Part shown: piece after piece, positions 5,901 through 18,036 of the stretch | Layout of the letters: each line of letters opens with the position of its first letter | Numbering within the stretch: position 1 is the first letter of the stretch | From: Candidatus Eiseniibacteriota bacterium | Lineage (GTDB): Bacteria > JAFGKV01 | Length of the DNA: 18,036 nucleotides | NCBI GenBank assembly: GCA_025453925.1 | Contig: JALOPK010000024.1 | Coordinates: 1 to 18,036, forward strand | Direction: 5' to 3' | Program-made: the position numbers and the translations under genes | Notes under the pieces: model-generated | What the model saw: the letters and a program-made list of their open reading frames with translations, nothing else | Told to the model about the DNA's origin: nothing | Database searches by the model: none

Positions 5901-8027
5901 GGCTTCAGCGTCACCGATCGCGAGAGCCCGGGCCGCCTGGGTTGCGGTCTGCCGCCACTGCCCGAGAGCTGCATGGCACACCGCCGTTCCGCGTGCCACG
6001 CGGATACCCATGGGCCCATCGTCGGGAGGAACACAACGTTCGACCATACGGAAGAGGCTCAAGGCGGTCTGGTATTCCCGCGTCTGGAGAGACTTCTCGG
6101 CCGCCGGCAGCCCAAGACCCAAGGCCTCGGGGAATGCTCCCGATTCCGCCAGATGCCACACCAGCGGCGCGACCCATTCCGAATCGTCGGGCCGGCGGGC
6201 GAGGATGGCCCGGGCCGCCCTGGCATGCAGTTGGGTGCGCTCGCTCGCATCCAGGGATGCCAGCAGACAATCCCTTAGCGCGGGGTACCGGAGCGCCCAT
6301 CCCCCTCCTCGGCGAACCACATGGGCGCCTTCCACAAGCGCCCGCACGGCCTCATCGAGTTCTGAGGCCGACGCGGCGGCCACTTCGCCCAGAACGTCAT
6401 CCGCATGGCGCTCGCCCAGCGCCGCGATTGCCGTCAGGACTCTCCGGTGGAGCGCAGGCATCGGCCCGAGCACCCCCCAGCTCGTCCATGCCTCGGGGGA
6501 CTGCAGGTCCGGAATGCTCTCCGCAATCCACTGACCGCCGCTCCGGCGAAGACTGCCCAGGGTGATAAGGTGACCAAGAATGTGCGGTACGACCGTGGGG
6601 TCCCCACCCGATGCCGCGTGGACTACCGCCGCGATTTCCGAGCCACAGGCTTCGATTCCAAGGCACGAGCAGACCAGGCGTGCCGTCTCGCCGCGGGTGA
6701 GGCGTCTCAGCCGGACGGTGCGAACATGGGGCCGGGCGCATACGCCCGAAATCGCGGCCTGCAGCCGACGAAGGTTCTCTTTGTCTACCGCGACGGTCAT
6801 CATCACCTGCTCGCCGGCCAGCAGCGGGCCCGCGGCGTCCAGGAATACGCCGAGGGAGTCGATGTCGCTCCGGCCGGGGTCGATCAGCAGGGAAAGAGGC
6901 TGGCCCGAGGCCAGCCGGGCGGCCTCCGCGAGACATCTGATCCGGGCTCCCATCGCCGGGGGAACATTGTCTCCCGCGGGTGCATCCGGTTGCGTCAGGG
7001 CCTGGGTGCGTCTGACGAGTTCGTGGATGAGATCGGCATGGGAGCAGGCATCAGGCCCGCCGACGGTGACCCGGTCGACGCCCGCGAGACCGAGTTCGAT
7101 GGACAGCCGCGCAAGCAGGTCTTCGGCCCGAGCCCCATTGTGTCCATAGACCAGCATCTGAGTTCCGCGGCCGTGACCGGCGAGCTCCATGGCCCGTCGG
7201 ATGAACCTCCATGGCCTTTCCTCGAATGTCGCGGGGAGGGCAGGGAGCGATATGCCGGGCCGCCTTCTCTCCCGAGCGCCGAGGAGGGCCTCAGCGGACC
7301 GCGGACGTTCGCCGGGCTCCTTGGACAAAAGTCGGAGCACGAGACGGGCCATGGCGGGCGAGACGCGGTCATTGATCTCGCGGGGGTCGCGAGGCTGCTC
7401 GTGAAGGTGAGCATCCAGGACGGCCTGTACGGAGTCGCGGGTAAAGACCGGCTGACCGGTGAGCACCTCGAACAGGGTCGCCCCCAGAGAGTAGAGGTCG
7501 GCGCGCCGGTCCGGACGGTCGCCCCGCACGAGCTCGGGGGGAGCAAACGCGGCCGTGCCCCTGAACCCCGCCCCCTCGGTCGGCTGGGGCCGGCAGAATC
7601 CGAAATCGGTCAGGACGGCTCGAGACGGAGGGGATCGGCAGCCGTCGAGGAGGATGTTGGACGGCTTGATGTCGCCATGAAGGAGTCCTCGACCGTGGGC
7701 GGCCTGCAGCCCTCGACACACGCCGTCGAGCAGCTTCCTCAAGCATCCCTCGCCCCACGTGAGGTATGCCTCCCGCAACGTCGGCCCGGCCACGTACTCC
7801 AGCGCCAGGTAGCGGCTCTTTGCGGACAGAAAGGCATCCAGCACCCGGACGATGTTCACATGATCCAGATCCGCCCACGCCTGGATGCCGGCCCGCTCGG
7901 GGTCATCACGGAGGAGCTTGACGGCAACCGTGGTGTGTCGCCAGTGATCCGTCGCACGATACACCCGCCCCTCACCGCCTTCGGCGAGAAGCGCTTCCAG
8001 CGTGTACCGGCCGGCCAGCAGACTCAT
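2973..8027 (-). CDS. Giant sigma-54-dependent activator: Ser/Thr kinase + degenerate NTPase + TPR + GAF + sigma-54 AAA+ + Fis HTH
   Basis: A 1684-residue one-protein signalling and transcription factor. Residues 7-245 are a Hanks-type kinase: Lys37 (VAVK), catalytic loop HGDIKPSN with Asp119 and Asn124, DFG at 141-143 and an APE-like PPE. The usual alpha-C Glu is not obvious and HRD is HGD. Residues about 270-600 resemble the NTPase module often placed after such kinases, but the P-loop position reads GHNGARAED (295-303) without the Lys-Thr/Ser, so nucleotide binding is probably lost. TPR-type helices fill about 620-1160. GAF spans about 1187-1335, followed by a short coiled coil. The sigma-54 AAA+ domain is intact: Walker A GETGTGKE at 1387, GAFTGA at 1434-1439, Walker B TIFLDE to 1459. 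A Fis-type HTH spans about 1640-1665. The start is chosen at 8027 because GGAGG (minus strand, 8034-8038) lies 6 nt upstream; a further ATG at 8063 falls inside a palindromic operator and lacks a ribosome site. It probably activates the sigma-54 promoters in 8028-8777. Confidence 0.92.
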   Translation of the reverse strand: MSLLAGRYTLEALLAEGGEGRVYRATDHWRHTTVAVKLLRDDPERAGIQAWADLDHVNIVRVLDAFLSAKSRYLALEYVAGPTLREAYLTWGEGCLRKLLDGVCRGLQAAHGRGLLHGDIKPSNILLDGCRSPPSRAVLTDFGFCRPQPTEGAGFRGTAAFAPPELVRGDRPDRRADLYSLGATLFEVLTGQPVFTRDSVQAVLDAHLHEQPRDPREINDRVSPAMARLVLRLLSKEPGERPRSAEALLGARERRRPGISLPALPATFEERPWRFIRRAMELAGHGRGTQMLVYGHNGARAEDLLARLSIELGLAGVDRVTVGGPDACSHADLIHELVRRTQALTQPDAPAGDNVPPAMGARIRCLAEAARLASGQPLSLLIDPGRSDIDSLGVFLDAAGPLLAGEQVMMTVAVDKENLRRLQAAISGVCARPHVRTVRLRRLTRGETARLVCSCLGIEACGSEIAAVVHAASGGDPTVVPHILGHLITLGSLRRSGGQWIAESIPDLQSPEAWTSWGVLGPMPALHRRVLTAIAALGERHADDVLGEVAAASASELDEAVRALVEGAHVVRRGGGWALRYPALRDCLLASLDASERTQLHARAARAILARRPDDSEWVAPLVWHLAESGAFPEALGLGLPAAEKSLQTREYQTALSLFRMVERCVPPDDGPMGIRVARGTAVCHAALGQWRQTATQAARALAIGDAEALPIAQRAELTLMLAKADSAVGTERDAERRLGELLEIPLPPPVRAEVMSAAAHVAAEGRRWVDAERHARAGLETGAADPSLRSSLENTLGVALLMQGRLEEARVPLEGSYHARESEGQELDAGRCALNLGILTRRAGSYAEARQWLRLALDRLGAAGAVSFLSQVHNTLGLLELTIGDPWGACASFARAVRLALESGRWRTACRALNNHGLAMNACGERAQARALFMEARVRARHRGDRSAERKALRNLANVWLDCGEAAQAEHCLSQVTALGPGSDDPEGSVVEMLCLARLKREQGLLDQAGTHMDDALRMVDEAGDAQLRLRTYCELAVLRIAQGRGEDAVRAAERAASSPGYQGTVDEVIVLRTLGQALASAGRHQDAASVLQRCLALAGDRPDAEETALVRLAVGRWLADGHQAGGFRAPERYLAQAADAFRRLGSALRLRDAEEALERLSSGATGGAAVATTRKLSALYRMLTLVNSAESAEGLLDQVLDLAVHAVGGERGLIILVDPASKDLVVRAKTEIDGATVADASRISEAVVRQVAGAGVPVFSDDALKDARFSDHDSIRLNRIACFACVPLTVRGVITGTIYVDSSDLSRRLVEDDISFLVAFANHAAIAMENRRLLAELEDENAQLHERLEASESIETLVGHSPGMMAVARAVRAVARSSVTVLIQGETGTGKELIAKAIHHLSPRRRGRFVTVNCSALPEGLLESELFGHARGAFTGATGETEGLFVAATGGTIFLDEIADMSLSLQAKLLRVLDSGEVRPVGRAAARQTDARVLCATNRDLHQAMEQGRFRPDLYYRIKVVVVRLPALRERRQDIPLLVSHFVSVYNERFGAQIRRVDRQAMAMLCARDWRGNVRELEHVVEAAVALSPGTVVDPDALTLVLDAPLSSRDGRLVGPLAEELRAAERQCLDRALKESGWNVSAAARRLAIGRRQIQRLMRRHDLGPAPPGPRRPGGNTEEARS

Positions 8028-8033
8028 CAGACG

Positions 8034-8038
8034 CCTCC
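8034..8038 (-). promoter_or_regulatory. Ribosome binding site fixing the regulator start
   Basis: GGAGG on the minus strand, six bases before ATG at 8027. It decides between this start and the in-frame ATG at 8063, which would give 12 extra basic residues and would lie inside the operator. Confidence 0.75.
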
Positions 8039-8040
8039 GT

Positions 8041-8072
8041 TGTCGCATCTTGGTGTGCGACATTTTGTCGCA
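8041..8072. promoter_or_regulatory. Operator/enhancer: palindrome TGCGACA-TTT-TGTCGCA plus an extra half-site
   Basis: A perfect 7-bp dyad with a 3-bp centre occupies 8056-8072. A further half-site TGTCGCA lies at 8041-8047, facing the first arm across 8 bp. The 17-bp design (7-3-7) is that of NtrC/Fis-type sigma-54 activator sites, and the same arms recur twice at 8506-8541. It sits 14-45 bp upstream of the regulator start codon and about 95 bp upstream of a weak -24/-12 candidate on the plus strand. It could therefore serve both autoregulation of the regulator and activation of the divergent small gene. Recognition by the neighbouring Fis-type HTH is inference from position and symmetry. 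Confidence 0.75.
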
Positions 8073-8167
8073 TCAGCGCAACCTATGGTGAGGGGCTACC
8101 AGGGACAAGATCAAGGGGTGTCGACAGATCAGGGCGGCAGGGCTTCACGGCCCGCTTGCTGCATGGG

Positions 8168-8183
8168 TGGTGGGGTGACTGCG
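8168..8183 (+). promoter_or_regulatory. Weak candidate -24/-12 (sigma-54) promoter for the small exported peptide
   Basis: The stretch TGG-N9-CTGC has GG and GC with the invariant 12-bp register (8169-8170 and 8181-8182), but the rest of the consensus TGGCACG-N4-TTGC is poor. Its place, about 95 bp after the palindrome at 8056-8072 and about 54 bp before the start codon, fits enhancer-dependent transcription. In G-rich DNA such a match can arise by chance. Confidence 0.28.
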
Positions 8184-8224
8184 CGCTTCCTGTCATGCCG
8201 CAGCCGGTTCACCACCCCCGTCTG

Positions 8225-8231
8225 AGGAGGT
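8225..8231 (+). promoter_or_regulatory. Strong Shine-Dalgarno AGGAGGT of the small exported peptide
   Basis: Perfect anti-16S match with 5-nt spacing to GTG at 8237. It is the main evidence that this short ORF is translated from the internal GTG. Confidence 0.8.
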
Positions 8232-8236
8232 CCTCC

Positions 8237-8428
8237 GTGTCGAGACGCCAGGTCCGGTCGAGAGCCGCCATCGCAACCCTTCTGCTAGCGTTGTGCCTTG
8301 CCACTACTGGGATTTCCCCCGCACGCGCCGACGGAACCAGTGACAAGGATGACGATCCCTCGCCGGGCCGTCTTCCGGTTGTCACCTGGTCTATGGTGCA
8401 TGCATGGGAGCTGTGCCTCGTCCTGTAG
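8237..8428 (+). CDS. Small exported peptide, 63 residues, function unknown
   Basis: No family is recognised. The product begins with a basic n-region (VSRRQVRSR), a hydrophobic core (AAIATLLLALCLATTGI) and a cleavage-type end SPARA, so it should be exported. The Arg pair (SRRQV) loosely resembles a Tat motif. The predicted mature part is only about 32 residues: an acidic stretch (DKDDD), a Pro/Gly link, then a hydrophobic tail with two Trp and one Cys, ending LCLVL. The GTG start is chosen because a full Shine-Dalgarno AGGAGGT (8225-8231) lies five bases upstream; an in-frame ATG at 8156 has no such site. It is divergent from the giant regulator, has its own strong terminator, and follows a copy of the palindromic operator. 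A secreted signal, lipid-interacting peptide or toxin are all possible; none is shown. Confidence 0.65.
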   Translation: MSRRQVRSRAAIATLLLALCLATTGISPARADGTSDKDDDPSPGRLPVVTWSMVHAWELCLVL

Positions 8429-8444
8429 TCGCCGGCTCACTGAG

Positions 8445-8478
8445 AAGGGTCGCCCCTCTTGGGGGGGCGGCCCTTTTT
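8445..8478 (+). terminator. Rho-independent terminator after the small exported peptide gene
   Basis: A 12-bp stem (AAGGGTCGCCCC with GGGGCGGCCCTT, one G-T wobble), 7-nt loop, and a run of five T at 8474-8478. It begins 17 bases after the stop codon at 8426-8428 and separates this gene from the next promoter region. Confidence 0.9.
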
Positions 8479-8505
8479 CGTTGTCCCCACGCCCGAAAAG
8501 TCAGA

Positions 8506-8541
8506 TGCGACAGTTTGTCGCAGGTGCGACAAACTGTCGCA
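8506..8541. promoter_or_regulatory. Tandem enhancer: two 17-bp palindromes TGCGACA-N3-TGTCGCA
   Basis: Site 1 (8506-8522) has centre GTT and site 2 (8525-8541) has centre AAC; both have perfect 7-bp arms identical to those at 8056-8072. Centres are 19 bp apart. Site 2 is the exact reverse complement of site 1, so the whole block is one 36-bp mirror around GG. Located 120 bp upstream of the -24/-12 promoter at 8662-8677, it has the normal spacing and copy number of a sigma-54 enhancer. The probable binder is the Fis-type HTH of the giant regulator (inference). A hairpin role in RNA is less likely because a terminator precedes it. Confidence 0.82.
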
Positions 8542-8661
8542 CGACGCAAGGCATAACAGCCAGGACCGCTCTCGTCGCGTGCCGCCCCTTGATCGTGGGT
8601 ATGCCTTGCAGGCAAAGGAAATGGCCGCATGAGACGGGGAACGTCCGGGGGCCACCGGGAG

Positions 8662-8677
8662 TGGAACGCGGCTTGCA
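8662..8677 (+). promoter_or_regulatory. Sigma-54 (-24/-12) promoter of the SpoIIAA/STAS-like gene
   Basis: TGGAACGCGGCTTGCA matches the consensus TGGCACG-N4-TTGC(A/T) at all fixed positions except one (A for C), with correct GG/GC spacing. The transcript should start near 8688, giving a leader of about 89 nt before the GTG at 8777. It lies 120 bp downstream of the paired palindromes. It implies that the genome encodes RpoN, which is not in this window. Confidence 0.8.
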
Positions 8678-8776
8678 TTGATGGTGGAGATTGCCGTCTG
8701 GCTTGAGTCTCGGCCCTTGGAGCGGGTGCCCCGCCTCCTCCCTGCCGGGAACAGGAATCTCCGGAGGAACGCGACC

Positions 8777-9154
8777 GTGTCGTACATGACCGTGGAACGT
8801 CACCATCTCCACCTGCGTGCGATAGTGCGGGGCAACGGAAGCTTCGCATTGTCGCCGTCCAACGTGGATGACCTGCTCCACGCCGCGCGTGAGGAACTGG
8901 CCTCCGCGGTCTTGGTCGATGCTCGGGAGGCCGGGCAGGCCGCTGGCATCGTGGAGTGGTTCACGGTTGCGGACACTCTGGCACATCGTCGTCCGCCGAC
9001 ACTTCGGTCAGCAGCCCTCGTGGTGTGCGCCGGCCAACTCCGGGATGCGCGGTTCGCCGAGTTGGTGGCGCGCAACCGCGGATTGAACCTCAGGGTCTTC
9101 GAGGATGACCGGGCTGCAGTTGAGTGGCTGGAAGGTGACGATTGCGCGACATAG
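8777..9154 (+). CDS. SpoIIAA/STAS-like small protein (125 residues)
   Basis: Soluble protein without signal peptide or membrane segment. It has the feel of the SpoIIAA-like/STAS fold: alternating strands and helices, a central AVLVDAREA strand-turn, an ALVVCAG strand, then RFAELVARNRGLNLRVF followed by a C-terminal helix AAVEWLEG. The last segment is typical of small SpoIIAA-like proteins (VARNRGxNxRVF...AxxWL). It lacks a clear phosphorylatable Ser of classical anti-anti-sigma factors (inference from reading only). The GTG start is chosen because GGAGGAA (8763-8769) lies seven bases upstream and because starts before about 8688 would precede the sigma-54 transcript start. The ATG at 8786 is an alternative. 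It is likely a target of the giant regulator. A role in partner switching or as a regulated cytosolic binding module is possible but unproven. Confidence 0.8.
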   Translation: MSYMTVERHHLHLRAIVRGNGSFALSPSNVDDLLHAAREELASAVLVDAREAGQAAGIVEWFTVADTLAHRRPPTLRSAALVVCAGQLRDARFAELVARNRGLNLRVFEDDRAAVEWLEGDDCAT

Positions 9155-9216
9155 CAGGCTGGAGCGCGCTACACTGAACTAGAATCACCCTGGGCGGTTG
9201 TCGGGCAGTGCCGGAA

Positions 9217-9253
9217 GCGGGGAGTGTCGCGGAACATCCGCGGCGCTCCCCGC
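9217..9253 (+). terminator. Strong GC-rich hairpin downstream of the STAS-like gene
   Basis: A 16-bp stem (GCGGGGAGTGTCGCGG with CCGCGGCGCTCCCCGC, two G-T pairs) and a 5-nt loop AACAT, 62 bases after the stop codon. No proper T-run follows (only TTT a few bases later), so it may be a factor-assisted terminator, a 3' stabiliser, or part of an unrecognised RNA. Confidence 0.5.
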
Positions 9254-9636
9254 GCTGCGTTTCACCCCGAGTCTCACGCCGGCTGGGGACGCGACCACGT
9301 GAATCCCACGACCATGCCTGGTCTTCGGGCCATGCGGCTGTCCCCACGCGGGCGTGGAGACCCAGACGCTCTCGGCCAGGGCCGCTTCGGAATGGCTCCT
9401 CTTCTCCCTGTCGATGCCTCGGTTCTCCCCTCCGCGCTGTCCACCCAACGGCGTGCCACGGTCCGTCGCAGAAGGGTACCGCGACGCGGCAGCGCAGCCT
9501 GCTCACCCCAGCCCGGCCGGCGATAGCAGGGAGGCCGGGACCGAGAGGGAGCGGGCCGGCGTACAGATCAGGTCATGCAGGTGATATCCGAACGTCGTGA
9601 ACTTCGGGCGAATCCTTCGCTGACGCTCGCGAACTA

Positions 9637-9672
9637 ATATGGGACAGGTCCAATATAGGACATGTCCTATAT
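9637..9672. repeat. REP-like tandem palindromes built on GGAC-NN-GTCC
   Basis: A perfect 20-bp palindrome ATATAGGACATGTCCTATAT occupies 9653-9672. Overlapping it at 9637-9656 is an imperfect copy with the same GGAC-NN-GTCC core (8 of 10 pairs match). The block is much more AT-rich than its surroundings. Such TATAGGAC/GTCCTATA units recur in many genomes as REP-like elements, some linked to Y1-family REP transposases; no such gene is in this window. An operator is the alternative reading. Confidence 0.55.
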
Positions 9673-9760
9673 GCCTGGGGGGCCATCTCCGTGGCCGGCA
9701 TGATGCGGCGGAGCTGCCTCGTGCTTGGGCGGCGGGCGTGTCATCGCGCAGTCCCAACAC

Positions 9761-9814
9761 GGCCATGACGATGCATGGCCGTCCATCGCGAAACTCGGTG
9801 GGCCTCGCGAGAGA
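9761..9814. repeat. Diverged direct repeat, copy A
   Basis: About 54 bp resembling 9974-10027 (offset 213 bp), starting with the identical GGCCATGACG and staying roughly 70-75 percent identical through ...CGCGAA-CTC-GT-GG-CTCGCG. Similarity seems to continue with small gaps upstream. The mismatches are often third-position in one minus-strand frame (ARPTEFRDG against ARPTELRGG) and one plus-strand frame (both with SVGLA), so this may be a decayed duplicated coding fragment. Confidence 0.5.
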
Positions 9815-9973
9815 GGTACGTTCCAAGGCGTCGGCCGTATCGGCGCGCCGACCGGCTCAGGGGGGTAGCCCTCAATGTTGAACCGGCGTGAGCCGCGAAT
9901 CATCCGCCACGCAACACGTTCTTCCCGTTCCGCCTCCGAGCAGGGGAACAAGTCGCACAAGGCCCGTATCAGC

Positions 9974-10027
9974 GGCCATGACGGAGCGTCGCCTTCCACC
10001 GCGAAGCTCAGTCGGTCTCGCGGAAGG
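9974..10027. repeat. Diverged direct repeat, copy B
   Basis: Partner of 9761-9814. It is 213 bp away and in the same orientation. See that entry for the shared core and the possible coding frames. Confidence 0.5.
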
Positions 10028-10156
10028 GACCGGTCTGTCTGTTCGTCCTATGCGTCGCGGCCATCCCGCAGGGGCTCACCTTGGTGTGAACGGGAGCCAC
10101 GAGACCTCGGACTCGCGGGTTCTTGCGGCCTGTTGGGGCGGCCAGTCCTCTCCGGG

Positions 10157-10708
10157 CTACCGCCCCTCGTCACGGTGCCGGGTGGAGATATCCGACACGT
10201 CGGCGCCAAGCTCAAGGGGTGGACGATTCGGCATCAAGGCCACATCAGGCGGCGTCCTGTCAGGAGAGTCGCCTCGGAACCCTGCGTGAGTGTCACACTC
10301 CTCGAACGATGGCTGCGCCCAGAGATCGGAGACCGCGGCAACAAACGGGGGAAACGTGCCGTGCCGCGGGGAAGGTCGGGGCATGTTGATGCCGACGAAG
10401 AGCAGGGCGACCGCCGCCACCGCAGCCGCAACCTGATACAGCGGGACGCGGTATGCCACGAGACGCTGGATCGCAGGCCGGGGGCGATGGGCGTGCGCAT
10501 GCCGCCGCATCAGGCGCTCCCGCACGTCGCCGGAGAGTGCGGGCTCAGGCTCGAACCGGAGGGCTCCAAGGGTGTCCGACATCTGCTGGCGAAGTGCCCG
10601 GCACGCCGGGCACACGGCACAGTGCTCCGTCATTCGTGCGGAAGGATGACCGTCTATGTCCTCAAACAGCTCTTCATCAGTCAGGTGGTCGTAAGTCGGG
10701 GATGTCAT
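10157..10708 (-). CDS. Zinc-finger anti-sigma factor, membrane-anchored
   Basis: A 183-residue partner of the adjacent ECF sigma factor. The N-terminal cytoplasmic part has the ZAS signature His29-x3-Cys33-x2-Cys36 (EHCAVCPAC), as in zf-HC2 anti-sigma factors. A His/Arg-rich linker (RRHAHAHRPRP) precedes one membrane helix at about 90-107 (LYQVAAAVAAVALLFVGI). The remaining ~75 residues would be periplasmic and show no known domain. Its ATG overlaps the sigma stop codon by four bases (ATGA, 10705-10708), so the two are translationally coupled. It should hold the sigma factor at the membrane until a signal causes release or cleavage. Three-gene operon with 10705-12434. Confidence 0.88.
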   Translation of the reverse strand: MTSPTYDHLTDEELFEDIDGHPSARMTEHCAVCPACRALRQQMSDTLGALRFEPEPALSGDVRERLMRRHAHAHRPRPAIQRLVAYRVPLYQVAAAVAAVALLFVGINMPRPSPRHGTFPPFVAAVSDLWAQPSFEECDTHAGFRGDSPDRTPPDVALMPNRPPLELGADVSDISTRHRDEGR

Positions 10709-11286
10709 GCGGTTCTCACCTCCTCGGATGCCTCATGGGCGAGCAGGGTGCGAAGGTCATGCAAGGCGCTGTGCATGCGGGTTCGTGCCGTAGCGGGCGG
10801 GATGGACAGAATGGCAGCGATCTCCTCATACGGAAGGTCGAGCCAGATGCGCATGACCACGACCAGCCTCTTGGGCTCGGAGAGCGCGGCAAGGAGGCGA
10901 CGCGCCAGCGTCTCCGCCTCGACCGGAAGCAAGCCGCCGGACTCCATGTCCGACGAGGCCGTCGGGCACTCCTCGGTCAACGGTACCGAACCGTCGTGTC
11001 GTCGCGCAGCCTTGCGGCCAACATTGAGGGCGATGGTGAACAGCCATGACCGGAATGCCCCCTGCGACCGGTACGACGGCAGCGCATCCATGACCCTGCA
11101 GAACGTATCATGCACCATGTCTTCCAGATCGGCCTGGTCACGGGCGTAGGTCCGCAGAAGCCGTGCCACGCGGCGCGCATACCGGTCATAGAGAGCGCCG
11201 AACGCCGCGGTGTCTCCCTGGCTGGCCCTGATGGCCAGCAGCTCATCGAGCCGGTCTGACCCCGCGACATCGACCTCGTCGTTCAC
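10705..11286 (-). CDS. ECF-type RNA polymerase sigma factor
   Basis: A 193-residue group-4 sigma factor. Region 2 runs from about FGALYDRYARRVARLL through DLEDMVHDTFCRVMDAL and AFRSWLFTIALNVGRKAARR. Region 4 is LSEPKRLVVVMRIWLDLPYEEIAAILSI... with the HTH PPATARTRMHSALHDLRTLL. The GTG at 11286 is chosen because it forms a GTGA overlap with the stop of the upstream TPR gene; longer in-frame extensions read into low-complexity Arg/Gly sequence that is the shadow of that gene. The following anti-sigma gene overlaps by 4 bp. It likely directs genes responding to the envelope signal sensed by this operon, possibly including its own promoter. Confidence 0.92.
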   Translation of the reverse strand: MNDEVDVAGSDRLDELLAIRASQGDTAAFGALYDRYARRVARLLRTYARDQADLEDMVHDTFCRVMDALPSYRSQGAFRSWLFTIALNVGRKAARRHDGSVPLTEECPTASSDMESGGLLPVEAETLARRLLAALSEPKRLVVVMRIWLDLPYEEIAAILSIPPATARTRMHSALHDLRTLLAHEASEEVRTA

Positions 11287-12434
11287 CGCGCCGCCAGCTC
11301 CTCCAAGTGCTGCTGGATGCTGGTCTCCCCGTGGAACTTGGCGATGCTGATGCCGATCTCCGCGAGACGTCCGGCGGACTCGCCGTCCCCGGCCTCCCGT
11401 GCGTCCTCCGCGGCCCTCGCGAGCACGTGCAGGTAGTTGGTGAGGAGCTTCTGCTCGGCGGTGCGGAGGTCCCACGGGTAGGTCCAGTCAGTGGCGCTGT
11501 CCAGCCGGTAGGTGTCACGGAACAGGGCCAATGTCTTCTTGTAGTCTGTGCGCTCGGATGATCCCGTGAGCCCGTCGACACGGGCGCAGAGCCCCTCGAT
11601 CGTGAGGGATCGCGCTGACCCCAGCCGGTCGAAGGGAACCGTGAGGGATATGTAGACGGGCCGCCGTCGTGTCTTCACGAGGTCTCGAATCACCGCCAAG
11701 GCGCCGCTGAAGGGGCCCTTCTCAACATCCTTCGAGATCTCCGGGAACCAGTCGGGATGCTGCTCTCTCATGGCGTTCGCATATGCGGGGCATCCCAGAA
11801 GGCTCTGGTTGAGCACCGTCACGTCGGTCCTGAAGCCCCGGCCCGCCTGCAGCGACACCAACGGATAGGTGTCATTGTCGCCATTGGTGACGAGCACGGC
11901 CCCCTCGGGCAGGCCCGCCAGGATGTTGTACCCGAAATCCCACACCGGCGTGTGGATGAGTTGACGTTCGTACATCTCCCGGGCGGTCTCGTAGGCACGA
12001 CCCACGCGGCCCGTGCAGGTGTGCAGCCCGTAGAGGCTGTAGAGCACGTCACCATAGGTGGGGTCTGCCGTGCGTGCGCGTTCAAACATCTCCGTGGCCC
12101 TGGCCACGTCGGCGGCGTTCCCATGGGTCCAGAGCTGGCAGGCATAAAGGTCCAGCGCCCGCGCGTAGGTAGGGCCCAGTTCCACCGCCTTGGCGTAGAA
12201 GGGGAGATAGGTGTCCTTGGCCTCGCCGGCGTACCGGTAGGCCTGGGCAAGATTCACGTAGCCCTCGGCGCTCTCGCCGTGGCGCTCCATGTAGTCTTTC
12301 CACTGCTGCGCCAAGGCTCGATACGCCGCGGGCGACAGCATCTTCTCCCGCAGACTCACCACGGGCTCGGGAGTCTGGGCAGTCGCTACGGTCCAGAGGA
12401 GTGAGAGCAACAGAAGGGAGATGATACGACGCAT
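11283..12434 (-). CDS. Exported TPR protein with a GDNDT motif, first gene of a sigma/anti-sigma operon
   Basis: 383 residues. Signal peptide MRRIISLLLLSLLWTVATA then Gln20. Residues about 35-160 are TPR-like helical pairs (GYVNLAQAYRYAGEAKDTYL, ARALDLYACQLWTHG, GDVLYSLYGLHTCTGRVG). Residues 184-213 (NGDNDTYPL ... DVTVLNQSLL) closely resemble the soluble motif found near the end of DUF2723-type membrane proteins, but no membrane helices follow, so this is a detached module rather than a glycosyltransferase. The C-terminus is helical. The start at 12434 is set by GGAGG (minus, 12440-12444) five bases upstream; an in-frame ATG at 12464 lacks a site and would mask the signal peptide. It is coupled by GTGA to the ECF sigma gene. 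A periplasmic sensor or regulator of that sigma pathway is a reasonable inference. Confidence 0.85.
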   Translation of the reverse strand: MRRIISLLLLSLLWTVATAQTPEPVVSLREKMLSPAAYRALAQQWKDYMERHGESAEGYVNLAQAYRYAGEAKDTYLPFYAKAVELGPTYARALDLYACQLWTHGNAADVARATEMFERARTADPTYGDVLYSLYGLHTCTGRVGRAYETAREMYERQLIHTPVWDFGYNILAGLPEGAVLVTNGDNDTYPLVSLQAGRGFRTDVTVLNQSLLGCPAYANAMREQHPDWFPEISKDVEKGPFSGALAVIRDLVKTRRRPVYISLTVPFDRLGSARSLTIEGLCARVDGLTGSSERTDYKKTLALFRDTYRLDSATDWTYPWDLRTAEQKLLTNYLHVLARAAEDAREAGDGESAGRLAEIGISIAKFHGETSIQQHLEELAAR

Positions 12435-12649
12435 GGCATCCTCCATGGATGATGAGAGACTCATGATACAAGGCCCGGGCTCCTTCAGGTAGAATCCCCG
12501 TGCATCGTGAAATGTTCATCGCATGGCGATCGGCAGCCCAATCCTTGCTGCGACGGGGAGTGGTTCGTAACGTGCGTGAAGATCCAAAGGGCGCCCTCCC
12601 TCGGAGTCCAGGGCGGATTGGCGTGGCGCAGTCGAGAGGCGTGCCGGTG
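12435..12649. promoter_or_regulatory. Shared divergent promoter region of two sigma-factor operons
   Basis: A 215-bp region between the minus-strand TPR-sigma operon and the plus-strand CHAT-sigma operon. TAGAAT on the plus strand (about 12490-12495) and TATCAT on the minus strand (near 12461-12466) resemble -10 boxes, but neither has a convincing -35. No clear ECF-type GGAAC element was found. If the CHAT gene starts earlier (in-frame ATG at 12500) the region shrinks to about 65 bp. Confidence 0.45.
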
Positions 12650-15600
12650 ATGATTGACGATCCGAGAGCCAGTAGGCAGGTCGACCACACTCGTACCGGG
12701 TGGCTGCACGGCACTCCCCGGTGGCGGATGCTCGTGCATGTGCTGGCTCTTGCCGGCATGATCACCTGCGGTGATGAGCGAGACGGAGCGTCCCGATACG
12801 CCGGGGCTCGGGAGCGGGCCGTTGCGAACGAAGCTCAGCCCGGGTCCCCAGGTCGCCCCGTGTGGGAAACGACGAACCGCTTTCTTCCGATTCGAATTGC
12901 CATGGCATCCTGTGGTGACAGCCTTGCACGGGGTGCCTTTCTGGCGGCCTGGCGGGACAGCCTGCGGATCTCTCCGGAGGATCCGCGGGGCGACTACGCC
13001 GTGGGGCTTGCGTGCCTTGCCCAGGGAGAGGATTCCCTGGCCCTCAGCCATCTCCGGCGACTGATCGCCGCCGGGGTACGGGATCCTGTGTGCTATTCCC
13101 ACCTCGCCGAGGCCGCACGAAGAACCGGCACGCTGCCCGCCATCAGCGCCGACATATCACGCGGCTCCCGGGACACCACGTCAGGAGCCGACTGTGTGGC
13201 GGCGGGATCGATCTTCCTTGAGCTGGCCGCGTGGGATTCGGCGGCGGCCTGGGGGCGTGCCGCGCTCTCGGCGGGAACCGACTCGGGTGAGGCGCACCTG
13301 CTCCTGGCCCGGGCACTCCGCGGGCAGGGGCGCCTGGAGGAGGCCGCACAGGAGGCTGACGCGGCTGCGTCACTGGCAGCCCGCGCGAGTGACCACGAGT
13401 TGCGCGCGAGGAGTCTGGATGCGATGTGCGTCACCTATCGAGCGCATGGCGAGCGGTTTCGCGCCACCGCGGTGGGCACTGAGGCGCTGCACCTTTGCCT
13501 CCGGCACGGTCTGCGACACCTGGAAGCCCCGATCCGTTGCGAGTTGGGCTACCTGCGGCTGCGTCAGGGAGATGGGCCGGGCGCCTGCCTGCTCCTCCAG
13601 CGCGCGGTGGCCGTGGCTGACAGCGCGGGCGATCGAAGAAGCCTCGGGTGGGCAACGAAGTTGCTGGGGGATGCGCGGGCTGTGCAGGGTGATCTTGAGG
13701 ACGCGGAGGCGCTGCTGGGCCGGGCGCTCGTGATGCTTGGCGCGGTACGAGACCCGGAAGGGCCGGCCGCCTGCCTGGACGCCCTGGCGGGACTGGCTGC
13801 GGGTCGCGGTCAGGTGAGGAAGGCCGTGGCGCACTATCAGGAGGCACTCGCGCTGCATCGGGCCCGCCGTGACGGGCGGGCGGAGGGGGCCACACTGGTC
13901 AATCTGGCGTCTACCTGGCTGGAGCACGGTGAGGTGGCCGACGCAATTCGAAGTTTCCATCAGGCGATTCGGGGTGCGGCTGCCGGGGGCGACTCCATGA
14001 CCATTGCCGCCGGATCCATTGGTCTGGGTAACGCGTATCTGACACTCGGTGACCTGGCGCGCGCGGATGAGATGCTCCAGCGGGGGCTGGCGCTGGCGCG
14101 GGCGCGTCACGACACGGCTGCGATGGCCCGGGCACTGGGTGCCGCGGGTGCCCTTGAGTTCCGCAGGGGAAACCTGGGGAAGGCACGAGAACAATTCCAG
14201 ACCGCCGGAGGCCTATTTGAACGACTCAATGACCGGCGTTCCATGGCAGCGGCACTCATGAATGCCGGCATATCGCAACTGCATGACGACGCCCGGCGCG
14301 CGGCGAGTTCGATTCGGGAGGCCCTGGAGGCCTTCACCGGCTGTCATGACGCCTATGGTCGTGCCGCCGCATGGGCCTCGCTGGGCGAAATCTCTTTGGC
14401 CGCCGGCAGGATTCGGGACGCCGACTCGCTCTTTTCCGGGTGCCTCGATCAGGCCGTCGCGCTGGGCGCTCCTGACCTGACATGGTTCGCCCAGTATGGG
14501 GTCGCGCGCTGCCGCGAAGCGGCGGATGACTGGGAGGGAAGCCTCATGATGTATGAGGCAGCCACGAGCACGGTGGAACACGCCCGGACCCGGCTTCCGG
14601 CCCACGAGTGGCGGTTCGCGTTCCTGGCTACGACCATGGAGATCCCCGAGCGCCATATCGGCCTGTTGGCGGCACTGGACGACCGCTGGCCGTCCCGTGG
14701 ATTCGCCCGTCGAGCATTCGATGTGGCCGAGGCAGCGAAAGCCCGCTCATTCCTCGATCTCCTGAGCGAACCAGAGCGCCGGAAGGCGCGGCATGACGAC
14801 CCCGACGGGGAGATCAAGGCAGCCTTGGTCATGGAGATCTCCAGTCTCAGCAGGGCACTCTGGCAACTGCCTGAAGGCTCACTCCAGGCGGTGTCGCTTC
14901 GTCGGCAGGTGGCCGCCCGCGAAGACGAACTCAACCGTCTTCAGTCCTTGTCTGACCAGTCCTGGCGCGAAGATCGAGCGTCAGCACCCAATCCTCTGGA
15001 GAGGCTCCAGAGTTCCATGGGTGCTCGCGGAACGGGGCTGCTCCTGGAGTACGTCACCGGGAAGGCCGGCTCGTTCCTGTGGCTCGTGAGACCCGACACT
15101 GTGCTGTTGCGGCGCGTGCCCGACCGTGGCCGGCTCGCCAAGCTGGTGAGACCCCTCATCGATGCCCTGCGCATGCCTCCCCGCATAGGCGCGTATGATG
15201 AGACGGGGCTTCGCGCTCTGGCGGAAGCCGTGTTGCCTTCGCCCGCCTGGTTCGAAGAGACATCAGGCGGGATCTTCATCGTGCCGGATGGCCCGCTGTG
15301 CTATGTTCCGTTCGAGACCCTCCCAGTGGCGATGGATTCCGCCGGCTCGGCACTGATGATCGAGCGCGGCCCCGTGAGCTACGCGCCTTCGGCCGCGGTC
15401 TTGCTCTCGGTCTGGAACCGGGGCCCATCCCCGGCGGGAGGCACCGTCTTGGCAGTGGGAATACGTGATGCCCACGGTCTCGAACCAGTCGGGGAGGGGA
15501 ATCACATAGGTGGGGCGCCCATGCTTCCCCCGTTGCGCTACGCGGAGGCAGAGGCGGAAAGCGTTTGCGCGTCGTTCCCACCGGGTTGTTGTACCAGTGT

Positions 15601-16096
15601 GATCGGCCTCGACGCCACGGAAGGCCGGGTAGTACACGAGTTGCAGGAGCCCTATGCCATTGCCCATCTTGCCACCCATGCCATGATTAACCTTGAAGCG
15701 CCAAGGAGCTCGTGTATCGTCCTGAATCCTGGGCCTGCCAGCGGCGATGACGGCGTGCTCGTCTTCGATGAGATCCTCCAGCTCTCGTCGTCACCTCGGC
15801 TCGTGGTGCTGTCGTCTTGCCAGAGCGCGTTGGGGCAGTTGATTTCCGGCGAGGGAATAGTGAGTCTCTCACGGGCGTTCTTTCACGCGGGAGCACGGAC
15901 CGTGCTGGTGACGCTGTGGCCGGTGAATGACCGGTCGGCCGTATCCTGGATGAGCGAGTTCTACCAGTGCCTCGCCGAGGGAGCATCACCGGACCAGGCG
16001 GCGAGAGCGGCCAAACTGCGGCTTCTCCATGGGCATGCGCCGGCAACGCGTCATCCGTACTACTGGGCGCCCTTCGTGCTCATAGGAGGGAGCTGA
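12650..16096 (+). CDS. TPR-CHAT cysteine protease
   Basis: About 1148 residues. A hydrophobic segment MLVHVLALAGMITC (27-40) follows a basic stretch, so the protein may be exported or membrane-tethered; the Cys40 context is a poor lipobox. Residues about 80-640 are many TPR units (for example GARGQ-, EGATLVNLASTWLEHGEVADAI, MTIAAGSIGLGNAYLTLGDLARA). A helical linker follows (AKARSFLDLLSEPERRKA). The C-terminal ~290 residues are a CHAT domain, a caspase/separase-fold peptidase, with both catalytic residues present: His1010 in HLATHAM (codon at 15677) and Cys1057 in VVLSSCQSALG (codon at 15818), then GEGIVSLSRAFFHAGARTVLVTLWPVND. The start is uncertain: GTG 12647 or ATG 12650 has AGAGG upstream, while the frame is open from an ATG at 12500. 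It is followed four bases later by an ECF sigma gene. Substrate unknown; the anti-sigma factor encoded two genes on is an attractive candidate. Confidence 0.9.
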   Translation: MIDDPRASRQVDHTRTGWLHGTPRWRMLVHVLALAGMITCGDERDGASRYAGARERAVANEAQPGSPGRPVWETTNRFLPIRIAMASCGDSLARGAFLAAWRDSLRISPEDPRGDYAVGLACLAQGEDSLALSHLRRLIAAGVRDPVCYSHLAEAARRTGTLPAISADISRGSRDTTSGADCVAAGSIFLELAAWDSAAAWGRAALSAGTDSGEAHLLLARALRGQGRLEEAAQEADAAASLAARASDHELRARSLDAMCVTYRAHGERFRATAVGTEALHLCLRHGLRHLEAPIRCELGYLRLRQGDGPGACLLLQRAVAVADSAGDRRSLGWATKLLGDARAVQGDLEDAEALLGRALVMLGAVRDPEGPAACLDALAGLAAGRGQVRKAVAHYQEALALHRARRDGRAEGATLVNLASTWLEHGEVADAIRSFHQAIRGAAAGGDSMTIAAGSIGLGNAYLTLGDLARADEMLQRGLALARARHDTAAMARALGAAGALEFRRGNLGKAREQFQTAGGLFERLNDRRSMAAALMNAGISQLHDDARRAASSIREALEAFTGCHDAYGRAAAWASLGEISLAAGRIRDADSLFSGCLDQAVALGAPDLTWFAQYGVARCREAADDWEGSLMMYEAATSTVEHARTRLPAHEWRFAFLATTMEIPERHIGLLAALDDRWPSRGFARRAFDVAEAAKARSFLDLLSEPERRKARHDDPDGEIKAALVMEISSLSRALWQLPEGSLQAVSLRRQVAAREDELNRLQSLSDQSWREDRASAPNPLERLQSSMGARGTGLLLEYVTGKAGSFLWLVRPDTVLLRRVPDRGRLAKLVRPLIDALRMPPRIGAYDETGLRALAEAVLPSPAWFEETSGGIFIVPDGPLCYVPFETLPVAMDSAGSALMIERGPVSYAPSAAVLLSVWNRGPSPAGGTVLAVGIRDAHGLEPVGEGNHIGGAPMLPPLRYAEAEAESVCASFPPGCCTSVIGLDATEGRVVHELQEPYAIAHLATHAMINLEAPRSSCIVLNPGPASGDDGVLVFDEILQLSSSPRLVVLSSCQSALGQLISGEGIVSLSRAFFHAGARTVLVTLWPVNDRSAVSWMSEFYQCLAEGASPDQAARAAKLRLLHGHAPATRHPYYWAPFVLIGGS

Positions 16097-16100
16097 TTCG

Positions 16101-16655
16101 GTGTCATCGGTCCCAGCGGTTCCCTCGGATGAAGCGTTGATCCAGGAAATCCACGCGGGCAGCGCCCGTGCGGAGCTGGCGCTGTGGGAGCGGTATCGGC
16201 CACGCATATGGTTCTTTCTGCTCCGCCGACTTGATGGCGACCGGGAGGCGGCTCGTGATCTGGAGCAGGAGGTCTTCGTCGCGCTGCTTCAGGCGATTCG
16301 TGACGGGCGCTTGACTCAGAGCGGGAACCCGGGAGCCTATCTCTACAAGACCAGCTCGAACCTGGCAACGCGCTGGATGCGGCGTGTGCGTCGCAATACT
16401 CCAGTCGGGGACGCCGACCTCACGAGGACTGACGATACACCGGAGACGATTCACCTTACCCAGGAAGCCCATGAGACGTTGCGCCGTATGGTGGGAGCGA
16501 TTGCGGCGCTGGACCGGCGCATCCTCGACTTGCGGTTCGGGGAGGAGTGGAGCTACCGCCGGATTGCGGGGGAGCTCGGTCTGAGCGAAGACTCCGTGCG
16601 GCAACGCGCCTGCCGAACAGTGGCAGGACTCCGGAGAGGGCTCAATGACCGGTGA
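16101..16655 (+). CDS. ECF-type RNA polymerase sigma factor (CHAT operon)
   Basis: 184 residues. Region 2: LALWERYRPRIWFFLLRRL, AARDLEQEVFVALLQAI, GAYLYKTSSNLATRWMRR. Region 4: IAALDRRILDLRFGEEWSYRRIAGEL with the HTH GLSEDSVRQRACRTVAGLRRGL. The GTG start lies four bases after the CHAT stop and uses GGAGGGA at 16085-16091, inside the end of the CHAT gene, so the two are co-transcribed. The N-terminal PSDEALIQEIHAGSARAELAL is the usual ECF lead-in. It is only distantly similar to the sigma factor at 10705-11286, so the two operons are not a recent duplication. Its anti-sigma partner is most likely 16855-17601. Confidence 0.9.
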   Translation: MSSVPAVPSDEALIQEIHAGSARAELALWERYRPRIWFFLLRRLDGDREAARDLEQEVFVALLQAIRDGRLTQSGNPGAYLYKTSSNLATRWMRRVRRNTPVGDADLTRTDDTPETIHLTQEAHETLRRMVGAIAALDRRILDLRFGEEWSYRRIAGELGLSEDSVRQRACRTVAGLRRGLNDR

Positions 16656-16827
16656 GAGCGCCTGGATGAGAACGCACCGGAAATGGAGGGACGGCCTCCG
16701 CGTCGACCACACCCGCGCTGCAGAGCGGTTCCGCGCCACGTACTCCGCCGCTCGCGTGTCACAGAACAGGGGGATCGTGAACATGGTAGGTGAGGGCGCG
16801 GCCTTGATGGGTAGCGAGGCAGGATAG
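16645..16827 (+). CDS. Small hypothetical ORF between sigma and anti-sigma genes (doubtful)
   Basis: 60 codons, starting inside the sigma gene end with GGAGAGG nearby (about 16632-16638). The product is basic and without recognised motifs (MTGESAWMRTHRKWRDGL...). Third-codon GC is high in the first half only. It fills the otherwise unexplained 199-bp gap before the anti-sigma gene. It could be a small peptide, or leader sequence that happens to be open. Confidence 0.28.
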   Translation: MTGESAWMRTHRKWRDGLRVDHTRAAERFRATYSAARVSQNRGIVNMVGEGAALMGSEAG

Positions 16828-16854
16828 TGACCATGACGAATAGAGGAACAGGCC

Positions 16855-17601
16855 ATGGCGATTGACCACGATCCGTTGAGCGTAATGCGGACCATTGAAC
16901 GCTACCTCGGGGGAGAACTCAGCCCCGAAGAGCAGCAGGAGTGGGAGGAGCACTACTTTCAGTGCGCCCAGTGCTTCGAGACACTGGAGGCGACGGCACA
17001 GATCAGAGAGCATTTCAGGGAAGAGGCCCGAGAGCGACTCCGTGAGGGCGGCCGTCCCGCGTCGCGACACCGCTTCCGCCTCAGGGCGCTGACCCTCCCG
17101 CAATGGCTCTTGCCGGCCCCGGCCTGGCGCCCGTCCCTGGCGGCAGCGGCAGCCGCCATCATCGTGGCCATCCCGGCAACGATGGGATGGCTGCGCCTGG
17201 CCTCCTTGCGACAGGAGGTCAGGCAGCTAAGGATGCCGGGCGTGGCCTCCTTGACTTATGTTCTGGATGAAGGCGTGCGGGGCGTGGAACCCGCAGTGAC
17301 CATCCCGGTCGATGCCGGCAGATTCCTTCTCCAGTTCAATCTCGTCGGTGAAGAAAGAGAGGCGACGACCCGCACCGCCCGCATCCGGGATGCATCGGGA
17401 CGCGTGGTGTGGGCGGGCGCGGGCCTTGCGGGCCAGGGGCCCTACGGCACCTTCGTCATCTCGTGCCAAAGCTCTTTCTTCAACCCTGGCGACTACGAGC
17501 TTATGGTCGATGAGGTGCGGAGAGATGACGGAACGGTACTGAACAGCTCGGTCTTCGCGTTCCGGGTCACGGGCGCCACCAGGCAGGGAACGGGCCAATG
17601 A
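16855..17601 (+). CDS. Zinc-finger anti-sigma factor with large extracytoplasmic domain (CHAT operon)
   Basis: 248 residues. N-terminal zinc-binding anti-sigma motif His33-x3-Cys37-x2-Cys40 (EHYFQCAQC) following YLGGELSPEEQQEWEEH, the classic zf-HC2 lead-in. One membrane helix at about 94-113 (PSLAAAAAAIIVAIPATMGW). The C-terminal ~130 residues (about 120-248) would be extracytoplasmic and look beta-rich (VTIPVDAGRFLLQFNLV, YGTFVISC, GDYELMVDEV), suggesting a ligand- or protein-binding sandwich. The next gene overlaps its stop by four bases (ATGA). It is the likely antagonist of the sigma factor at 16101-16655. Whether the CHAT protease cleaves it is a hypothesis. Confidence 0.85.
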   Translation: MAIDHDPLSVMRTIERYLGGELSPEEQQEWEEHYFQCAQCFETLEATAQIREHFREEARERLREGGRPASRHRFRLRALTLPQWLLPAPAWRPSLAAAAAAIIVAIPATMGWLRLASLRQEVRQLRMPGVASLTYVLDEGVRGVEPAVTIPVDAGRFLLQFNLVGEEREATTRTARIRDASGRVVWAGAGLAGQGPYGTFVISCQSSFFNPGDYELMVDEVRRDDGTVLNSSVFAFRVTGATRQGTGQ

Positions 17602-18036
17602 GCTGTTCACGGCAGGTTCGGGCGGTATTCCTGGCGGTGGCCTTCGGCACGCTTGCCGGCGGGGTGGCTCCCCGCCAGCCAGGCGCGGAGACCCTGGATG
17701 CGATCGCCTTCGAGTACGGCATCGTGGGCCGGACCGCGCAGTGCCCCGACAGCCTGTTCCTCGTCAAGGATGGGGTGACGCTGCGCTCTGGAGATCAGAT
17801 CCGGATCACGGTCCGCCGGATGCCGGATACCTGCTTCTACGTAATCCTCCAGATGTCCAACGGAGACTACACGCTGTTCCATGCCGCGCCAGGAGCGACA
17901 CCCGCCGATCCCATGATTGAGTCGTTACGCTGGCTCATGCTCGATGATGACACGGGCGTGGAGACGATCCACCTCGTGGCGTCCGCAGAACCCCTGACGT
18001 CTCTGGAGCGCTCGCTGGCTGCGTACGATGCATCCC
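17598..18036 (+). CDS. Exported DUF4384-like protein (3' end outside window)
   Basis: 146 codons are visible and the frame is open at the edge. N-terminal signal peptide (MSCSRQVRAVFLAVAFGTLAGG, cleavage near VAPRQ). Residues about 55-105 (LRSGDQIRITVRRM ... CFYVILQMSNGDYTLF) match the look of DUF4384: 'raised pressure to be displayed' beta-strands with GD...R and a YV-L strand, a domain often found beside caspase-like and CHAT proteases and sigma/anti-sigma operons. Translational coupling (ATGA) to the anti-sigma gene makes it the last visible member of the CHAT operon. The length and any further C-terminal domain cannot be seen. Confidence 0.75.
   Translation, partial: MSCSRQVRAVFLAVAFGTLAGGVAPRQPGAETLDAIAFEYGIVGRTAQCPDSLFLVKDGVTLRSGDQIRITVRRMPDTCFYVILQMSNGDYTLFHAAPGATPADPMIESLRWLMLDDDTGVETIHLVASAEPLTSLERSLAAYDAS

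Follow-up and report, generated by a model that had tools for sequence, protein, structure and literature searches.

Why should a caspase-like protease be encoded together with a sigma factor and its putative inhibitor in a stretch of DNA that is free of CRISPR repeats? The question is raised by contig JALOPK010000024.1 of a Candidatus Eiseniibacteriota bacterium (here called the window), a complete contig of 18,036 bp from a fragmented genome. Its plus strand encodes, in this order, a TPR-CHAT protease (a CHAT domain combined with tetratricopeptide repeats, TPRs), an ECF (extracytoplasmic function) sigma factor, an anti-sigma factor and a DUF4384-like protein. In type III-E CRISPR systems the TPR-CHAT protease Csx29 cleaves Csx30, an inhibitor of CASP-sigma (PMC10028731), and an initial annotation of the window, made from the sequence alone, had suggested by analogy that the protease cuts the anti-sigma factor, possibly in defence. 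The answer that we propose, tentatively and with slightly less than even confidence, places the event in a different compartment: the operon would be an envelope-facing switch, in which the protease serves as a dedicated extracytoplasmic site-1 protease for the ECF anti-sigma factor, following the logic of DegS with a caspase-like enzyme.

The layout of the operon, as read from open reading frames (ORFs), Pfam and NCBIfam, is as initially described. The CHAT gene stops at 16096 and the sigma gene starts at 16101, leaving a gap of 4 bp, and the anti-sigma and DUF4384-like genes overlap by 4 bp (17598-17601); the sigma and anti-sigma genes are 199 bp apart and are not coupled. A second genome of the same genus (the congener) carries the same four genes in identical order and with a similar kind of spacing, at identities of 50-51% (CHAT), 60-61% (sigma), 57-59% (anti-sigma) and 54% (DUF4384-like). 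Because the order is kept at 50-61% identity, the arrangement is not a matter of chance, and since the flanking genes differ between both genomes, the operon constitutes a conserved unit. The complete set was found in these 2 genomes only. In G002, another member of the window's family, a search for CHAT at E 1e-20 gave no match, and a scan of genome contigs returned the congener only, plus one TPR-only match in Streptomyces. The four-gene set as a whole is seen in one genus; a core of ECF sigma factor, anti-sigma factor and CHAT protease is widespread.

The TPR-CHAT gene (12650..16096, plus strand) starts with an ATG at 12650 within a frame that is open from 12500, and has an ortholog in the congener. 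The protein matches CHAT (PF12770, E = 8.8e-55) and TPR_12 (E = 3.3e-20). The CHAT domain (15212..16087, plus strand) contains the expected dyad, His1060 (codon 15677-15679) and Cys1107 (15818-15820), and a CHAT domain with this dyad and TPRs makes the protein a member of the TPR-CHAT proteases; a sequence search of the PDB matched the TPRs alone. Three features were absent from the initial annotation: an export signal of the CHAT protein, a transmembrane (TM) helix in the anti-sigma factor, and a second ECF/anti-sigma pair upstream. The predicted export signal (12650..12769, plus strand) is present in both genomes and ends at an aligned cysteine (Cys90). The congener signal, ALALIVAVLTGC, contains a perfect lipobox (LTGC), whereas the signal of the window (HVLALAGMITC) ends in MITC, with Thr at position -1, and is off consensus. 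The exported protein is probably a lipid-anchored lipoprotein.

The second gene (16101..16655, plus strand), again with an ortholog in the congener, encodes a short protein that consists of regions 2 and 4 only, as is typical of ECF sigma factors (PF04542, E = 2.2e-10; PF08281, E = 1.7e-8; TIGR02937, E = 7.4e-22). The third gene (16855..17601, plus strand) encodes a putative anti-sigma factor that would inhibit its cognate sigma factor by binding. Its zinc-binding anti-sigma (ZAS) motif, H33-x3-C37-x2-C40 (16951-16974), is intact and is kept in the congener (HYFQCAQC and HYFQCDEC, respectively). As in known zf-HC2/ZAS anti-sigma factors, the motif lies near the N-terminus and the gene adjoins an ECF gene; unlike these, the protein stays below the Pfam cutoff for zf-HC2 (PF13490, E = 0.0022, 18.5 bits versus a cutoff of 22.2) and has an outer domain for which a Pfam search gave no match. 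The match to TIGR03988 (7.7e-5) is likewise below cutoff. Sequence and rule-based hydropathy indicate, in both genomes, an inner N-terminal ZAS domain, a single TM helix (about 17137-17190) and an outer domain; in the window, this domain (about 17242-17571) is modelled as a beta-sandwich. The structure model is of low confidence (mean pLDDT 50, up to 80 in the sandwich part), and a Foldseek search with it returned mixed beta-sandwiches, which is informative on the fold class only.

The fourth gene (17598..18035, plus strand) is truncated by the contig end; the congener protein has 222 aa. A signal-peptide-like N-terminal stretch is found in both. No Pfam hit was obtained for either protein (PF14326 included), and the resemblance to DUF4384 that had been noted is a remote link, namely the hit of a two-sequence profile to an established member of the DUF4384 family (2.1e-6). 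A structure model of the protein (pLDDT 37) was not used. Judged by sequence, the sigma factor and the ZAS domain are predicted to lie inside, whereas the remainder of the anti-sigma factor, its larger portion, would face outward together with the CHAT protease and the DUF4384-like protein.

Does this association extend beyond a single genus? We searched PF12770 in 386 genomes, nearly all outside the family of the window, and analysed 114 regions, mostly CHAT neighbourhoods. Around the 115 CHAT genes surveyed, the density of sigma factor genes is 16.5 per 100 kb at distances of up to 1.5 kb, compared to 0.8-2.3 per 100 kb at a distance of 1.5-9 kb, an enrichment of about tenfold. The trio of ECF sigma factor, anti-sigma factor and CHAT protease recurs across about twenty families in variable gene order, most commonly sigma, anti-sigma, CHAT; the CHAT-first order of the window is rarer. 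The notion that the genes are mere neighbours with no joint function agrees with the restriction of the full four-gene set to two genomes, but the strong enrichment, together with a gene fusion discussed below, leaves it hardly credible. That the protease is tied, outside CRISPR, to an ECF sigma factor and an anti-sigma factor is supported by the recurrent association, the conserved catalytic residues and the fusion.

The loci fall into two kinds, those with an exported CHAT protein and a TM anti-sigma factor, and those with neither export signal nor TM helix. An exported CHAT is accompanied by a TM anti-sigma factor in 24 cases and by a soluble one in 1; for non-exported CHATs the counts are 4 and 11, respectively (p = 6e-6). 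When restricted to cases with a ZAS motif, the counts are 18, 1, 3 and 9 in the same order (p = 1e-4), and the match is retained when the data are collapsed by hand to one unit per family and class (p = 0.001). Four genomes (G139, G209, G196, G324) harbor both kinds of loci, each internally matched, and the pattern is therefore more than lineage. The counts rest on a signal-peptide rule whose false-positive rate was checked with sigma ORFs and with internal segments of CHAT; it replaced a stricter rule that missed evident signal peptides. The all-cytoplasmic version, a leaderless CHAT with a soluble anti-sigma-like protein, is seen at L074, L098, L116, L119, L126, L138, L149, L155, L160 and L162; L138 shows a sub-threshold CarboxypepD_reg match.

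An exported CHAT protease with a membrane-spanning anti-sigma factor implies that the analogy to Csx29 fails on location, and that DegS/RseA fits. A cytoplasmic protease whose cut of the anti-sigma factor takes place in the cytoplasm, and possibly serves defence, would have a precedent in Csx29 itself and counterparts in leaderless loci with soluble anti-sigma factors (L074, L119, L126, L160 and others). For the window, we consider it very unlikely, given the export signal and the TM helix in both genomes and the lack of CRISPR repeats and of a defence partner. A search with PADLOC gave no match for the sigma, anti-sigma and DUF4384-like genes, and for the CHAT gene it returned nothing beyond generic TPR hits and weak ones to BovA; the suggested role in defence was rejected on this basis. 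Likewise, a link to CRISPR was discarded, as the window contains no repeats; no Cas7-11 or Csx30 gene is found among the neighbours examined, the rest of the genome not having been searched. The type III-E Craspase also combines a TPR-CHAT protease, a sigma inhibitor and an ECF-type sigma factor in a single locus (PMC10028731). The window differs in that CRISPR repeats and Cas genes are missing, the protease is predicted to be exported, and a ZAS membrane anti-sigma factor takes the place of Csx30; an RNA trigger is not expected outside the cytoplasm.

The closest parallel in logic is instead the DegS-RseA-sigmaE system. Both systems feature a membrane-spanning anti-sigma factor, an ECF sigma factor inside and, for the window by prediction, a protease outside, with a site-2 protease encoded in the genome. 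DegS is a PDZ serine protease, whereas here a caspase-like Cys/His enzyme of the TPR-CHAT type, probably lipid-anchored, is predicted to perform the cleavage. A single-pass anti-sigma factor with an outer domain, together with a site-2 protease in the genome, is what regulated intramembrane proteolysis entails. Genes for site-2 proteases (M50) are present in both genomes (PF02163, E = 1.3e-54 in G000), which adds little weight, since such genes are near-universal in bacteria.

A further line of evidence is provided by fusions and exchanged parts. Locus L106 (genome G137, 6396-10507) consists of a sigma gene followed after about 15 bp by a gene for a 1191-aa fusion protein that combines CHAT with two ZAS motifs, a TM helix and TPRs, arranged such that ZAS is inside and CHAT outside. 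G422, a congener of this genome, has the same pieces in one frame that is broken by one TGA, and the pieces may therefore be separate there. The existence of a ZAS-TM-TPR-CHAT fusion favours a direct link between CHAT and the sigma factor pair. DUF4384 occurs in several settings. At L117 an anti-sigma factor that adjoins an exported CHAT carries it as its outer domain (5.4e-4, below cutoff); at L090 (5446-7215) and L141 (3766-5607) a Ser/Thr kinase-TM-DUF4384 protein, again with DUF4384 outside, replaces the anti-sigma factor between the sigma factor and an exported CHAT; and at L070, L077 and L121 it is a separate exported protein near CHAT. Out of 71 DUF4384 matches counted by hand, 12 have a listed CHAT at a distance of no more than 10 kb, with about one expected. 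Since DUF4384 recurs near CHAT and sigma genes and as an outer domain, it is plausible that it acts as an input module of such systems, including that of the window.

Several points weigh against a dedicated site-1 protease. The rules for export and TM helices were our own and had been tuned by visual inspection ahead of the final count, and some anti-sigma genes in the compartment comparison were chosen by hand. Among 20 fresh loci, to which the rule was applied in its frozen form, an exported CHAT was matched with a TM anti-sigma factor in 3 of 3 cases and no leaderless CHAT was present, so that only one half of the match was tested. A sigma neighbour is lacking for about half of the CHAT genes, and among these 33 of 61 are exported (strict rule); CHAT therefore has other roles. 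Moreover, a match of compartments is also expected, if more weakly, where CHAT is an output that acts where the signal arises. Finally, two sigma-linked CHATs of one genome (L073 and L094) have lost the catalytic His, which is replaced by Tyr, and are still linked to sigma and anti-sigma genes.

In the main rival explanation, the operon is under the control of an ordinary ECF pair, with the exported protease as an output directed at other envelope proteins. ECF operons often contain target genes, CHAT genes often stand alone without a sigma factor, and in the window CHAT heads the operon. We regard this explanation as a serious one, albeit rather unlikely, as a fusion of ZAS, TM helix, TPRs and CHAT is hard to square with a mere target and the association spans about twenty families with shifting gene order. 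The His-to-Tyr variants suggest another possibility, namely that CHAT serves, without proteolysis, as a sensor or scaffold whose TPRs bind the outer domain of the anti-sigma factor and alter its grip on the sigma factor without a cut. Of 45 sigma-linked CHATs, 43 retain the dyad intact, which makes such a role improbable; because of this conservation, proteolysis is probably needed for function, though not in every case.

Under the proposed site-1 scheme, the anti-sigma factor would use its ZAS domain to keep the ECF sigma factor bound on the cytoplasmic side of the membrane and display the beta-sandwich outside. The TPRs of the exported TPR-CHAT protease would sense an extracytoplasmic signal, perhaps together with the DUF4384-like protein, which is likewise exported; once activated, the protease would cleave the anti-sigma factor in its outer part as the site-1 step, whereupon a site-2 protease and then cytoplasmic proteases would complete the release of the sigma factor. 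The cleavage, the cut site, the signal, the role of the DUF4384-like protein and the sigma regulon are what we infer in this scheme.

A more general version, possible but held with greater reserve, is that exported TPR-CHATs act in many families as site-1 proteases dedicated to ECF anti-sigma factors, with the CRISPR Craspase as a cytoplasmic relative and with DUF4384, TPRs and beta-sandwiches as exchangeable outer sensors. The recurrence of the trio suggests a widespread way of switching genes on by cutting an inhibitor from outside the cytoplasm. To our knowledge, few substrates of CHAT proteases outside CRISPR are known. Should the anti-sigma factor prove to be the substrate, a testable role could be given to many TPR-CHAT genes that are now unassigned, activating proteases of a new class would enter ECF signalling, and the CRISPR-linked protease/sigma switch would have a plausible ancestor. 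In a literature search of partial coverage, a link between CHAT and sigma factors was found only for type III-E CRISPR, and no CHAT in ECF/ZAS operons. A related principle is known from the type III CRISPR Lon-SAVED system CalpL-CalpT-CalpS, in which a transcriptional response follows from the action of a protease on an anti-sigma factor (PMC11417357, PMC12751052); it differs in its protease family, its cyclic nucleotide trigger and its cytoplasmic location. Together with Csx29-Csx30-CASP-sigma (PMC10028731), this system demonstrates that CRISPR immunity makes use of sigma factors set free by a protease.

The spacer between the sigma and anti-sigma genes contains a small ORF of 23 aa (16756..16827, plus strand). 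Within it, a block of 27 bp (16777-16803) is identical in 25 of 27 positions in the congener, the rest of the spacer being unconserved, and occurs once per genome. Third positions of the small ORF are conserved more than in the neighbouring genes (P about 0.04). The block is possibly a cis element or possibly encodes a peptide; a search of Rfam gave no match. An autoregulatory promoter was considered and rejected, as the upstream regions of the two operons share no convincing common block and no sigma-70-like promoter is found.

Divergent from the CHAT operon, the minus strand carries a second set of genes (10157-12464) whose sequence of TPR protein, sigma factor and anti-sigma factor resembles the layout of the operon without CHAT. 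It is headed by an exported TPR protein (11283..12464, signal peptide read from the sequence), followed by a second ECF sigma factor (10705..11289, start inferred in an ORF open from 11475; PF04542, E = 1.6e-16; PF08281, E = 6e-11) and its putative anti-sigma factor (10157..10708), which has a HCAVCPAC motif and one TM helix but no zf-HC2 hit. The adjoining 2 kb (8064-10156) hold no convincing gene, and the longer ORFs there lack a Pfam match. A subtilase-like gene with FG-GAP-type repeats is located near the CHAT operon in both genomes (window 1-2733, minus strand; L008 6991-11199, plus strand), in the congener directly divergent from it; Pfam domains were tested for the window copy only. A further gene of the window (2973-8063, minus strand) encodes a fusion protein of 1696 aa that combines a Ser/Thr kinase, TPRs, GAF, a sigma-54 activator and a Fis-type helix-turn-helix.

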